DNA from: Thermoplasmata archaeon
GTDB lineage: Archaea > Thermoplasmatota > Thermoplasmata > Thermoplasmatales > GCA-001856825
Assembly: GCA_021816725.1 (NCBI GenBank)
Contig: JAKAXD010000003.1
Coordinates: forward strand, 1 to 64,000
Direction: 5' to 3'
Length of the DNA: 64,000 nt
The position numbers were made by a program, and so were the translations under genes. The notes under the pieces were generated by a model. The model had not been told where the DNA came from and ran no database searches. It saw nothing but the letters and a program-made list of their open reading frames with translations. Positions 20,724 to 25,172 of the stretch are shown here, piece after piece; positions within the stretch are counted from its first letter, which is position 1; every line of letters starts with the position of its first letter.

Positions 20724-21356
20724 ATGGGACTCCTGCTGATATTTGACATGGATGGCACGTTGATAGATTCAGAGCAATCCATAGTCAGATGCTTCCGTGA
20801 ATCTGCAGGGAGACTCGGTTACAACATCGAGAATGCTTCCAGGTACATAGGTGTTCTGAAACTGACCCAGATACTGAGCAAGAATGGGGTTCCAGACAGG
20901 GACCTGCCTGAGATAATGAAGTTGTACGTGCAGTGCTACCTAAACACATTTATGGAAGATACCTGGCCGATACAGAATTCCCAGATTGTCCTGGAGAAGC
21001 TCCAGGAATACCATCAGCTAGGCATTCTCACCCTGAAGAACCTCAATCTGACCCTAGAAATCGCAAAACAGTTCTTTCCACGGGTGAAATTCAGGTACGT
21101 AGTATGCGGAGACAGGCCGATAGAAAACAAGGTTGAGGGGCTGAAAATCATAATCAATGAATCCGGGATGGACCCTGGAAGCATCTACTACATAGGGGAC
21201 AGAGCAAGCGATGTAAAGAGCGCGGATGAAGCAGGTATAAAATCAGTTTGGGTCAGCTTTGGCCTTGGAAAGAAAAGCGATTTCGACTTCCGGAGCCATT
21301 ATAGAACGGCAAACAGCTACGACGAACTGCTTGAAATGTTCACTTCACGAACTTGA
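20724..21356 (+). CDS. HAD-superfamily phosphatase (Gph/phosphoglycolate phosphatase-like)
   Basis: 210 residues. Motif I IFDMDGTLIDS with the nucleophilic Asp, a helical cap (about 17-85), motif II as GILTLKN, a Lys in ENKVEGLK, and motif IV YYIGDRASDVKSADEAG. Substrate unknown; phosphoglycolate phosphatases and nucleotidases look like this. ATG 20724 has GCATATAAGA about 21-30 bases upstream, consistent with a leaderless start. Its stop overlaps the convergent small gene by 17 bases. Confidence 0.85.
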   Translation: MGLLLIFDMDGTLIDSEQSIVRCFRESAGRLGYNIENASRYIGVLKLTQILSKNGVPDRDLPEIMKLYVQCYLNTFMEDTWPIQNSQIVLEKLQEYHQLGILTLKNLNLTLEIAKQFFPRVKFRYVVCGDRPIENKVEGLKIIINESGMDPGSIYYIGDRASDVKSADEAGIKSVWVSFGLGKKSDFDFRSHYRTANSYDELLEMFTSRT

Positions 21357-21654
21357 AGCCGTGTCTTTCAGCAATCTCCCTTAAACCGTCTAATATGCCA
21401 CCCGTTCCCTCTTCCTTGAGACTGACCTCTACATTCTTCTCGGGTGCAGAAAGCAGAACATATCCCACAGTGACATCATCCTTTGTAACTGTCTCCTTCC
21501 TTGCGTACCTGGAAATGAGGTCTTCAACTGTCCATCTGTCTGATGGGTCCACGTTTATGAATTCCTCCAGCGCTGGCTTTATGTTTTCCTCAAGGACGCA
21601 TATCGTAGACCTGTCTGTTACGGAGAAGCTGATCATGAAAAGGTAGCATCTCAT
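21340..21654 (-). CDS. Small uncharacterised protein downstream of TusA-like gene
   Basis: 104 residues, beginning 2 bases after the TusA-like stop, so the two are in one transcript. Alternative start: ATG 21634-21636 (MISFSVTD). The sequence is mixed alpha/beta (STICVLEENIKPALEEFINV, DDVTVGYVLLSAPEKNVEVS) without Cys or a recognised motif. Linkage to a sulfur-carrier-like protein is the only functional hint. Confidence 0.55.
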   Translation of the reverse strand: MRCYLFMISFSVTDRSTICVLEENIKPALEEFINVDPSDRWTVEDLISRYARKETVTKDDVTVGYVLLSAPEKNVEVSLKEEGTGGILDGLREIAERHGFKFVK

Positions 21655-21656
21655 AT

Positions 21657-21914
21657 CTACAGCTTCCTAAGTTTATGCACTACGTTCAGGTCATACTTGC
21701 TGTCCACAATTTCGAACCTGCTGGATTCCAGTATAGCGTTGAATGTCTCGTCCTGAAGCACCCATTTATCCTTAGGTACTATCAGCATCAGCGTCTGACC
21801 AGGCTTAAGCTCCCTCGAAGCGAGCCTTATTGCTCCTTTAATGTAAATGTAAGGTTCCCCACAATTAAGGGTTCGAAGGTCCTCAACCCTGTCAGCCTGA
21901 CCGTATGCCTCCAT
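21657..21914 (-). CDS. TusA/SirA-like sulfur-carrier fold protein
   Basis: 85 residues. The TusA pattern is visible: DLRTLNCGEPYIYIKGAIRL, with the conserved cysteine followed by GEP rather than the usual P-x-P, then LKPGQTLMLIV and a C-terminal strand pair. TusA family members carry persulfide sulfur for tRNA thiolation or other pathways. The partner genes of bacterial TusA are not here; it is followed by a small unknown protein. Fold assignment is fair, function is open. Confidence 0.7.
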   Translation of the reverse strand: MEAYGQADRVEDLRTLNCGEPYIYIKGAIRLASRELKPGQTLMLIVPKDKWVLQDETFNAILESSRFEIVDSKYDLNVVHKLRKL

Positions 21915-21945: not shown

Positions 21946-22836
21946 TTACGTCTCAATCTTTTTCAATATCTCCCTTGCCATTGCACCGAACTTCTTCCTG
22001 GATTCTGGATCAATGTCCTTCAGCGGGAATGGGCTCTCTGTCTCCTTGTGATAGACCATATCTATGAAGCCGGCCATCGGCCCCTGCGGAAATTCGAGCG
22101 AGTTGGTAAGTTTCTTCAATTCTGACAGGACAGCCTGGAGCTTTCTTGCTTTATCAAAATTGGAGGAGGCAAACTCGTTGTACACCCTCACGGGAAGGTC
22201 GCAGAAATTTGAGGTTCCGTTTATGCCACCTGCCGCTCCCATAAGTAGGGACGGTAGAAGCAGATCGTCCTGCCCCTGTAATACCTTGATCTCCTTACCC
22301 ACAACATCAATCAATGTGGAAAAGTTTGAGAAGTTGCCGCTGCTGTCCTTTATGCCTGCTACCTGACTGAACTGTTTCTTCAGTTTCAAAACTGTCTGTG
22401 GCTCTATGTTGTTGTTTGTATTCTGAGGTATGTTGTATATCAAAACCGGGATGTCTATCTGTGATAGTATTTTCTCATAGTACCTGTAGATTGATTCCTG
22501 TGACATTCTCAGGTAATACGGAGTTACAACTGACACGCCGTCAACACCTAGTTCCTTTGCGTAAAGCCCCATAGTCACAGTTTCGTCCACTGAATTTCTT
22601 CCTATTCCGCCAAGAAAATACATGTTAGGCTTCTTCTTGTCTATGAAGTATTCCAGAACTTTCACGTGCTGCTCGACAGATATAATCGGGAACGCTCCTG
22701 ATGATCCCATGGGAAAAACCCCTTGAACCCCTATACTTCCAAGGAAGTCCATGAGAGCATCTATTCCATCATAGTCAATGCTGTCCCCCTTCCATGGAGT
22801 AACAGCAGGTGTTATTATCCCCTTTAATTCTGGCAT
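21946..22836 (-). CDS. DHDPS/KDG-aldolase family class I lyase
   Basis: 296 residues. The TIM-barrel family is shown by GSSGAFPIIS (GxxGE-like loop near residue 44), VLIYNIPQNT (catalytic Tyr) and VAGIKDSSGN with the Schiff-base lysine near residue 160. In Thermoplasmatales, which use a non-phosphorylative Entner-Doudoroff route, proteins of this kind act as 2-keto-3-deoxygluconate aldolases; the SSGAF loop instead of TTGE argues against true dihydrodipicolinate synthase. A TATA-like run lies about 25-35 bases before the ATG. Confidence 0.85.
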   Translation of the reverse strand: MPELKGIITPAVTPWKGDSIDYDGIDALMDFLGSIGVQGVFPMGSSGAFPIISVEQHVKVLEYFIDKKKPNMYFLGGIGRNSVDETVTMGLYAKELGVDGVSVVTPYYLRMSQESIYRYYEKILSQIDIPVLIYNIPQNTNNNIEPQTVLKLKKQFSQVAGIKDSSGNFSNFSTLIDVVGKEIKVLQGQDDLLLPSLLMGAAGGINGTSNFCDLPVRVYNEFASSNFDKARKLQAVLSELKKLTNSLEFPQGPMAGFIDMVYHKETESPFPLKDIDPESRKKFGAMAREILKKIET

Positions 22837-22910: not shown

Positions 22911-25172
22911 CTAGAAATTCTCCTTCATGAACTTCAGTCCCTCCTTGTTATCCTTCCTCATGAATCTAGACAGAGTCTCTATTTCTTCATAGTCAAACAC
23001 TATCCACGTATTGTTGCTTACCTCATACACGTACGCATCCGGCTTGAATACAGATTGAGGCTTGTAAACAACTGTGGCAGTGACAATATTTGCGGAAGTC
23101 CTCCTTACTAGCTCTTCTTTTGCAGCTTTAAGCGTCTTGCCTGTATCGGCTATATCATCCACCAGCAGGATGTACCCTTGGTTCTTGGAGATTGAAAATT
23201 CAAAGTCAGATATGCGAACGTGTGTCATCGGAATTCCATCGTCTGTATAATAGCTGGCCCTCAACGGGTAGACCCTTCTGACTGACAGAAAGTCGCTCAG
23301 AAGCCGGCCTATAACCATGCCCCCTCTCTCGATGTAAACGATGCTTTCTGGCCTTCCAAACTTTCTGAGTATGTCAGCTGCCAGTTCCCTTGCGTACCTC
23401 TTAAGGTCCACAAACTTGAGCGCCTCGAAATTCTTCTTTTCGCTCTCGAACCTGAACAGTTCAAGCCATTCCTTGGCATTAAGGAGTATGTCCTGGAGTA
23501 TCCCCGAGTCTTTCAGCTTCCTCGATATTCTAACGAGCTGGGGTGGCATTAGGGATGACTCCTCCATCAGCTTGTCGTTCTGGAATAGCTCCTCCGGCGT
23601 TCCGTCAAATATCGATTTCCCTTCCTTCAATACTATAGCCCTTCTGGTGTACTCTGCGACTAGCCTCATGTCATGTGTTATGATGATGACAGTAACTCCA
23701 CTGTTATTTATCTCAGAGAGCAGATCCATTATCTCAGTTGATCCCTTGTAATCCTGTCCAGTAGCTGGCTCGTCCACTATGAGCATTCTTGGGCCAGTAG
23801 AAATAACACTTGCAATGGCCAATCTCCTCTTTTCCCCCCTGCTCAAGGCATTTATGTCTTCGTTCACCTTGTCCCATAGGTTGACCCTCTTGAGCGCTTC
23901 CTCGGCCAGAGCCTCAAATTTAGATTTCTCCATATTTGCCTTCCTGAGACCGGAGTAAATTTCATCCCTGACCGTACCTTGGAGCACCTGCTGGTCTGGA
24001 TTCTGGAAAACGTATCCCACGTATCTTCTCACTATTTCCTTCCCATCCTTCTTGGATATGCCTTTCCCCTCGAACGTTATGTTCCCGCTCCATCCTGACA
24101 GATTTCCAGAAATTATTTTCGATATCGTGCTCTTTCCTGAGCCGTTCGATCCTACAAGAGAAAGAAATTCCCCCTCATGTACCAAAAGATTCAGCCCGTC
24201 CAGAGCCTTTGTTCCGTCCTCGTAATAGTATTCCACGTCCTTTACCTGAAGCTGCACCTTTCCCTTCTCTTTCTCTTTCCTGCTGACCCTGAACCCCTTT
24301 ACCCTTTCAGGTGCAAGCTTTTCCCCTATCTCCCCTGTCGGCCCTATAAGGTCCATCAGCTCAGGCACTTCAATGAAACGCTTTATGTCGTTCCTTGAGT
24401 ATATGTTCTCTGGCATGTCGATTGCAACAATTTCTCCTTTGTTCATAACTGCCACTCTATCAGATAGCCTCGTCAGGGTCTCCGGGTCCTGTTCAACCAG
24501 TATAATGGTGATACCGCTGTCCTTCTTCATAGCGAGGATTGAGTCGATTACATCACTCTTTCCGACAGGATCGAGATCAGAAGTAGGTTCGTCTAGGATC
24601 AGTATGTCCGGTTTCAATGCGAGGAAACTTGCAATTACAAGTCTCTGTTGCTCTCCCACAGAAAGCTCATGTGGTTTCAGCTTGGATGCAACTTTGAAGA
24701 TACTCTTCATCTTTACAACTTCGAGGGCATCCAAAATTCTCTTGTCCCTCTCCTTTTTGGAGAGATTGAGCTTGTTCAGGTTGAATGACAACTCTTCCAT
24801 TACTGTACCGTGGGAGAGATAGTTCTGGGGGTCCTGCTTTACAAATCCTATCCTTCCCTCCTTCATTTCCATTATTGCGAATGAGTTGCCTTTCTTTGAT
24901 CTTATGGACTTTACCACATTCTCTCCAAGTACCTTGACACTGCCGCTCAAGTGTTCATTCAGTTGATCTGGCGGCACCTTCAGCTGCTGCGGAATGAGCC
25001 CGGCGATTACGTAGCATAAGGTGGACTTGCCGGATCCCGTCGATCCCGTGATACCGAATACTTCCCCTTCCCTAATTTTCAGGTTGACATTTTTAAGGGA
25101 GTATTCCTTTTTGATTCCGGTGAATGTAGGAAACTTCCAGTAAAAATTGGATATTTCAACAGCATATCTCAT
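22911..25172 (-). CDS. Fusion of two ABC ATPase domains (EcfA type) with a phosphoribosyltransferase
   Basis: 753 residues in one uninterrupted frame. Domain 1 (residues 1-280): Walker A GSTGSGKS 43-50, signature LSVGEQQ 170-176, Walker B ILILDEP. Domain 2 (about 305-550): Walker A GSNGSGKS 341-348, signature LSRGEKR 443-449, Walker B MLIVDEP. Tandem ABCs of this kind drive energy-coupling-factor vitamin/metal/base importers. Domain 3 (about 590-735) is a type I phosphoribosyltransferase: IERGGMV (pyrophosphate loop) and the PRPP motif ILLVDDIADTGKTLK at 668-682, most like hypoxanthine/xanthine PRTases. I infer import coupled to phosphoribosylation of a nucleobase. No T or S subunit gene is adjacent. 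AATTTTATTTAGG lies about 25-35 bases before the ATG. Confidence 0.9.
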   Translation of the reverse strand: MRYAVEISNFYWKFPTFTGIKKEYSLKNVNLKIREGEVFGITGSTGSGKSTLCYVIAGLIPQQLKVPPDQLNEHLSGSVKVLGENVVKSIRSKKGNSFAIMEMKEGRIGFVKQDPQNYLSHGTVMEELSFNLNKLNLSKKERDKRILDALEVVKMKSIFKVASKLKPHELSVGEQQRLVIASFLALKPDILILDEPTSDLDPVGKSDVIDSILAMKKDSGITIILVEQDPETLTRLSDRVAVMNKGEIVAIDMPENIYSRNDIKRFIEVPELMDLIGPTGEIGEKLAPERVKGFRVSRKEKEKGKVQLQVKDVEYYYEDGTKALDGLNLLVHEGEFLSLVGSNGSGKSTISKIISGNLSGWSGNITFEGKGISKKDGKEIVRRYVGYVFQNPDQQVLQGTVRDEIYSGLRKANMEKSKFEALAEEALKRVNLWDKVNEDINALSRGEKRRLAIASVISTGPRMLIVDEPATGQDYKGSTEIMDLLSEINNSGVTVIIITHDMRLVAEYTRRAIVLKEGKSIFDGTPEELFQNDKLMEESSLMPPQLVRISRKLKDSGILQDILLNAKEWLELFRFESEKKNFEALKFVDLKRYARELAADILRKFGRPESIVYIERGGMVIGRLLSDFLSVRRVYPLRASYYTDDGIPMTHVRISDFEFSISKNQGYILLVDDIADTGKTLKAAKEELVRRTSANIVTATVVYKPQSVFKPDAYVYEVSNNTWIVFDYEEIETLSRFMRKDNKEGLKFMKENF

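Follow-up and report, generated by a model that had tools for sequence, protein, structure and literature searches.

An ECF-type tandem ATPase fused to a phosphoribosyltransferase in Thermoplasmatales, probably derived from a purine-base importer

The window, a 64,000-nucleotide stretch of contig JAKAXD010000003.1 from an acid-loving archaeon, encodes a protein in which a tandem ABC ATPase of the energy-coupling factor (ECF) type is joined to a phosphoribosyltransferase (PRT). The protein probably descends from the ATPase-PRT of a purine-base ECF importer; in the window's family, the S and T components seem to have been lost, the first ATPase domain (NBD1) has decayed, and the protein has probably been kept mainly as a purine PRT. 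The best reading of the window protein, judged from sequence, is that of a derived orphan of an ECF transporter variant. Its features and its downstream neighbor are as follows.

22911..25172, minus strand: fused ABC-ABC-PRT protein, 753 aa (P0001), from the ORF and domain searches
24387..25163, minus strand: NBD1, residues 4-262, ECF-type ABC ATPase with Walker A TGSTGSGKST, signature LSVGE, Walker B DEP, and Gln228 at the switch-His position
24489..24491, minus strand: Gln228 codon, where His is expected (EHD/EHN in 17/17 relatives with S and T)
23547..24251, minus strand: NBD2, residues 308-542, ECF-type ABC ATPase with Walker A, signature LSRGE, Walker B, and His500 intact
23451..23546, minus strand: linker, residues 543-574, with 91-100% identity among members of the genus
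22914..23450, minus strand: PRT domain, residues 575-753, HGXPRT/GpT-2-like by Pfam, profile, model, and structure match
23133..23162, minus strand: PRPP loop VDDIADTGKT, residues 671-680
23061..23063, minus strand: Lys704 codon, matching the KP lysine of Sulfolobus GpT-2 in the alignment and invariant in 31/31 fused proteins
21946..22836, minus strand: DHDPS/aldolase-family gene downstream of the fusion (gap 74 bp), a neighbor conserved in the family with no known functional link

The joining of ABC, ABC, and PRT domains in one protein, proposed in a first-pass annotation, stands. The minus-strand frame starts with ATG, has 0 internal stops, and contains both Pfam families (ABC_tran twice, 2.2e-58; Pribosyltran at residues 593-726, 1.5e-18). 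The ATPase pair is of ECF type, scoring above the cut-offs of two NCBIfam models named "energy-coupling factor transporter ATPase" (TIGR04521, 382.8 bits against 330; TIGR04520, 369.3 against 315). A frame artefact near residue 570, or a chimeric assembly merging two genes, is practically excluded because the fusion recurs as one open frame in 31 aligned proteins from two phyla, two closed genomes among them; the linker is conserved as listed, and no tool result favored an artefact. The ATPase-PRT fusion is real.

The same domain order was found in 20 further Thermoplasmatales genomes and 11 Micrarchaeota, as the first-pass annotation had suggested checking. In an order-level sample of 117 genomes, where f1 denotes the window's family and f2 and f6 are other Thermoplasmatales, the full-length fusion is present in 14 of 15 f1 genomes, 4 of 5 f2 genomes, and 3 f6 genomes. 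The window protein is 98% identical to that of Thermoplasmatales archaeon I-plasma. Among 295 Micrarchaeota genomes, 11 carry the fusion; ten copies are full-length (765-861 aa), and the remaining one runs off its contig. No further fusion was seen beyond these holders in 389 genomes across the phylum, where PRT matches outside the holders reached at most about 100 bits versus 227-312 within them, a gap that exists partly by construction because the holders are rows of the PRT profile. None of the plasmid records covers 80% of the fused protein, and the fusion was not described in the literature searched. The f6 proteins nest within the Micrarchaeota proteins in the NBD tree, and in unrooted T and S trees f6 adjoins the 850-aa Micrarchaeota group; these placements suggest horizontal transfer between the f6 and Micrarchaeota lineages.

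In these relatives, the fusion gene belongs to an operon. Wherever the contig extends far enough (6 Thermoplasmatales and 10 Micrarchaeota), S, T, and the fusion are contiguous and in that order; the G044 contig starts inside T and the G671 contig inside NBD2. S, T, and paired ATPase are encoded together in f2, f6, and Micrarchaeota. Immediately preceding the fusion is a gene for an EcfT (PF02361, 4e-24; solved EcfT chains, 2.6e-11), and an EARGF motif is invariant in the aligned T proteins of f2 and f6. The gene before T encodes a candidate S component of 215-237 aa with 4-6 predicted transmembrane segments, assigned from operon position and hydropathy only. Pfam returned weak, below cut-off similarity to MASE1 (best 0.0052), and a search of the S profile against the PDB gave nothing meaningful. 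The S proteins are 63-97% identical across phyla. They occur in 7 of the 117 order genomes, every one with the fusion and T (the remaining matches are fragmentary, at E >= 2e-4), and as 10 strong matches among the 295 Micrarchaeota genomes, all adjoining the fusion. The operon is present in both closed genomes taken to be Ca. Scheffleriplasma hospitalis and its symbiont Ca. Micrarchaeum harzensis, a published host-symbiont co-culture (PMC8975820). In Ca. Micrarchaeum harzensis (L141:9563-10114) and several relatives, the operon faces a convergent thymidine kinase gene.

Distant relatives of S (40-47% identical) were found in five Micrarchaeota. In three of these (G467, G496, and G739), the gene has a purine-nucleoside-phosphorylase-like gene and a deaminase-type amidohydrolase no more than a few genes away, and Transp_cyt_pur permeases (NCS1-type nucleobase) were confirmed in all three clusters. 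RpiB was confirmed nearby in G496 and recognized by eye in G467. On a different contig, each of these three genomes also encodes a stand-alone PRT that belongs to the same type as the fused one.

The S and T components that the first-pass annotation proposed to look for in the genome did not turn up in the window organism. No S of the operon type occurs in any of the 15 window-family genomes. For T, the window genome and 12 of its 14 family relatives gave no PF02361 match below E 0.01 and none below E 0.1 with profile A2, which was built from the operon T proteins and agrees with PF02361 on T distribution in the family. The only real PF02361 matches in the family, in G031 and G033, belong to a second ECF locus, complete and equipped with a tandem ATPase of its own. 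The window protein is therefore encoded in a genome with neither a detected EcfT nor an S component of the operon kind. The metagenome-assembled genomes are incomplete, yet completeness reaches 92-93% in three genomes of the family and the fusion itself is present in 14, so the missing genes are not accounted for by gaps in the assemblies. The window organism's lineage seems to have lost the S and T membrane parts and kept the fused protein alone.

Stand-ins for the membrane partners were considered and rejected. A T candidate in the window genome (C26:53098, E 0.05) is a 333-aa ORF that, by eye, is un-EcfT-like and resembles a flippase, beside a glycosyltransferase-like ORF. As to neighboring MFS genes, the one for a 466-aa protein is absent in genus g2, and in most members the MFS genes point away from the fusion; nothing speaks for them as partners. 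The unfused ECF locus of G031 and G033 (L117 and L118) comprises a membrane protein, a 532-aa tandem ATPase, and T beside transposase-like ORFs; it is near-identical in both genomes and was not found in other family members. Downstream of the fusion, window positions 21340-21654 and 21657-21914 hold two small conserved genes, one matching Thermoplasma TA0956 (PF11513) and one without a family; in the family members examined, their arrangement relative to the fusion is unchanged.

Both ABC domains had been described as motif-complete in the first-pass annotation, which is correct for NBD2 but not for NBD1. Of the elements looked for at both sites of a functional ABC pair (Walker A and B, signature, Q-loop, and switch His), NBD1 has Gln228 in place of the switch His (VEQD versus the expected VEHD/VEHN) and LSVGE in place of LSGGQ. 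VEH, LSGGQ, and DEP are present in 17/17 NBD1 domains linked to S and T; at least one of the NBD1 motifs (switch His, signature, or catalytic Glu) is missing in 14/14 window-family members. By genus, the switch-His position holds Gln in g1 and g4 and Lys in g3, and in g2 the NBD1 signature, Q-loop, and catalytic Glu are all gone. Because NBD2 and both Walker A motifs are intact throughout the family, some ATP-dependent role probably persists; the conserved motifs say that ATP binding would still matter for the protein.

Domain distances were compared between fusions with and without S and T. The NBD1/PRT distance ratio is 2.18 [1.65-2.95] within g1 and 2.60 [1.96-3.51] between family genera, all lacking S and T, and 0.99 [0.78-1.30] in f2, 0.30 in f6, and 0.52 and 0.44 in Micrarchaeota, which have them; the bracketed values are site-bootstrap intervals and are rough because the sequences are non-independent. 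Relative to NBD2, NBD1 is no faster in g1 (0.34/0.26) than in f2 (0.41/0.30), so the within-genus shift is owed to a slower PRT at least as much as to a faster NBD1. Between family genera, NBD1 is also fast. Synonymous sites were saturated for dN/dS. Within the window's family, the PRT is the best-kept domain of the fused protein.

The PRPP loop is intact at residues 671-680, as the first-pass annotation had stated, and D672, D676, K679, T680, and K704 are invariant in 31/31 fused proteins. K704 aligns with the KP lysine of GpT-2, a residue that reads the purine O6 in HGPRT/XGPRT. By profile, the nearest sequence to the fused PRT is Sulfolobus GpT-2 (1.8e-21). In a whole-protein AlphaFold model, the C-terminal PRT part had a pLDDT of 25-40 and was unusable; a model of the PRT domain, built with 16 sequences, reached a mean pLDDT of 83, and its best PDB matches were Sulfolobus solfataricus HGXPRT (E 9.5e-15). 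The window protein has both the PRPP loop and the PRT fold of a type I purine PRT. Given that a separate PRT in the window genome matches GpT-1 (2e-39), a structure titled adenine PRT, the fused PRT may be the 6-oxopurine enzyme of the organism. Elsewhere in Micrarchaeota, this PRT subfamily is associated with a transporter for a second time, in a cluster (L016:6591-10936, L017:1268-5562, and L019:6594-10927; also L146, L147, and partly L144) with genes for a calcineurin-like phosphoesterase, an APC-type permease (PF13520), and a ~575-aa protein. The N-terminal part of that protein is nucleotidyltransferase-like by eye, and the protein contains two PRT domains, of which the second is degenerate.

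By origin, the protein would be the paired ATPase (A-A') belonging to a dedicated ECF importer, with a C-terminal fusion to a 6-oxopurine PRT of the HGXPRT/GpT-2 type. For relatives with the full operon, we infer a substrate, a direction of transport, and a trapping step: a purine base (or nucleoside) would be bound by S and brought into the cell by EcfT and the paired ATPase domains, and the attached PRT would use PRPP to turn the base into a nucleotide at the cytoplasmic face. Alternatively, the PRT would sense PRPP or nucleotide to gate uptake. For the window's family, we infer a residual function: with the S and T genes lost and the first ATPase site decayed, the protein would be kept mainly as a purine PRT with a residual ATP-binding scaffold. 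The functional link between transporter and purine PRT drawn by the first-pass annotation is upheld in part. It gains support in the relatives, from S-T-AA-PRT operons in two phyla, S kin in purine-salvage clusters, and an HGXPRT-like PRT, and loses it in the window organism, where S and T are missing and NBD1 is eroded. Uptake-coupled phosphoribosylation is possible for the relatives and unsupported for the window organism. Tentatively, the operon in full-operon relatives could constitute ATP-driven uptake directly coupled to purine-base phosphoribosylation, an ABC/ECF form of group translocation common to episymbiotic Micrarchaeota and Thermoplasmatales, including the cultured host, with the window's family as its decoupled derivative.

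Other explanations differ in which organism, which step, or which substrate they concern. The window organism, too, might run an active vectorial importer with unrecognized or borrowed T and S proteins, the base being phosphoribosylated on entry. Intact Walker A motifs, NBD2, and PRT, together with retention of the fusion in 14/15 family genomes, would fit such an importer; it is nevertheless quite improbable, given that neither PF02361 nor the dedicated profile finds a T at relaxed E-values, that S is missing despite being 63-97% conserved elsewhere, and that every family member has lost the NBD1 switch His, signature, or catalytic Glu. A loss of the membrane parts with retention of the PRT remains our preferred explanation for the window's family.

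For complete operons, the PRT could act as a PRPP or nucleotide sensor that gates the transporter rather than as a trapping enzyme. Two features favor sensing in f6 and most Micrarchaeota, namely a PRPP loop with VDE/IDE rather than VDD and, after the PRT, a degenerate second PRT-like domain; the PRT also evolves faster than the ATPase in f6 and Micrarchaeota, and in G602, G699, and G529, of one Micrarchaeota group, the fusion is immediately followed by an independent, intact PRT gene. Against a sensor, f2 retains the full VDDI(A/S)DTGKT loop and the five invariant residues named above extend to all fused proteins, and as an account of complete operons in general we consider sensing rather unlikely. 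(Loci in one Micrarchaeota group with an intact PRT gene directly behind a 765-aa fusion are L133:8318-11211, L134:9099-12004, L135:8788-11684, and L136:60-1897.) Import of something other than a purine base, such as a pyrimidine, a nucleoside, or another PRPP acceptor, is unlikely as well. The convergent thymidine kinase gene in several Micrarchaeota and the lack of a Pfam family for the candidate S would allow it, but the PRT is nearest to HGXPRT/XGPRT with the KP lysine conserved, and genes for a purine-nucleoside phosphorylase, an amidohydrolase of the deaminase type, and a nucleobase permease lie near the distant S relatives.

Compared with known ECF transporters (EcfA-EcfA'-EcfT plus S; CbiMQO and vitamin ECFs), the ATPase domains match ECF_ATPase models above cut-off, the relatives' T matches CbiQ/EcfT and solved EcfT chains, and the S-T-A operon is dedicated. 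The differences are an enzyme fused to the ATPase, an S outside every Pfam family, and, in the window's family, a degenerate NBD1 without S and T. The PRT shares the type I fold, PRPP loop, KP lysine, and W(I/V)xF motif with S. solfataricus HGXPRT (GpT-2; PDB 4z1o, 5bqo) and E. coli XGPRT but is joined here to a tandem ABC ATPase and is about 21% identical over the structural alignment. Purine "group translocation" was proposed for E. coli and Salmonella PRTs in the 1970s and later disputed. That proposal and PTS-type systems share with the present case the idea of uptake joined to substrate modification; here, in contrast, the enzyme is covalently part of an ATP-driven importer motor, and the coupling is a proposed one. 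An HGPRT/adenylate kinase fusion in Zobellia galactanivorans likewise joins a purine PRT to another ATP-linked domain, but it comprises two soluble enzymes and no transporter (PMC7326950). In the literature searched, neither an ECF importer for purine bases nor an ECF motor carrying a metabolic enzyme as a fusion was reported.

The operon supplies a candidate S component for purines that belongs to no Pfam family and allows a direct test of an old question, namely, whether purine uptake and phosphoribosylation occur as one event. Present in both partners, it is a candidate nutrient route in the Micrarchaeota-host pair, and uptake-coupled phosphoribosylation in the relatives would be testable in a cultured archaeon. 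The window's family, whose protein would be a motor without membrane parts, may serve as a natural decoupled control.
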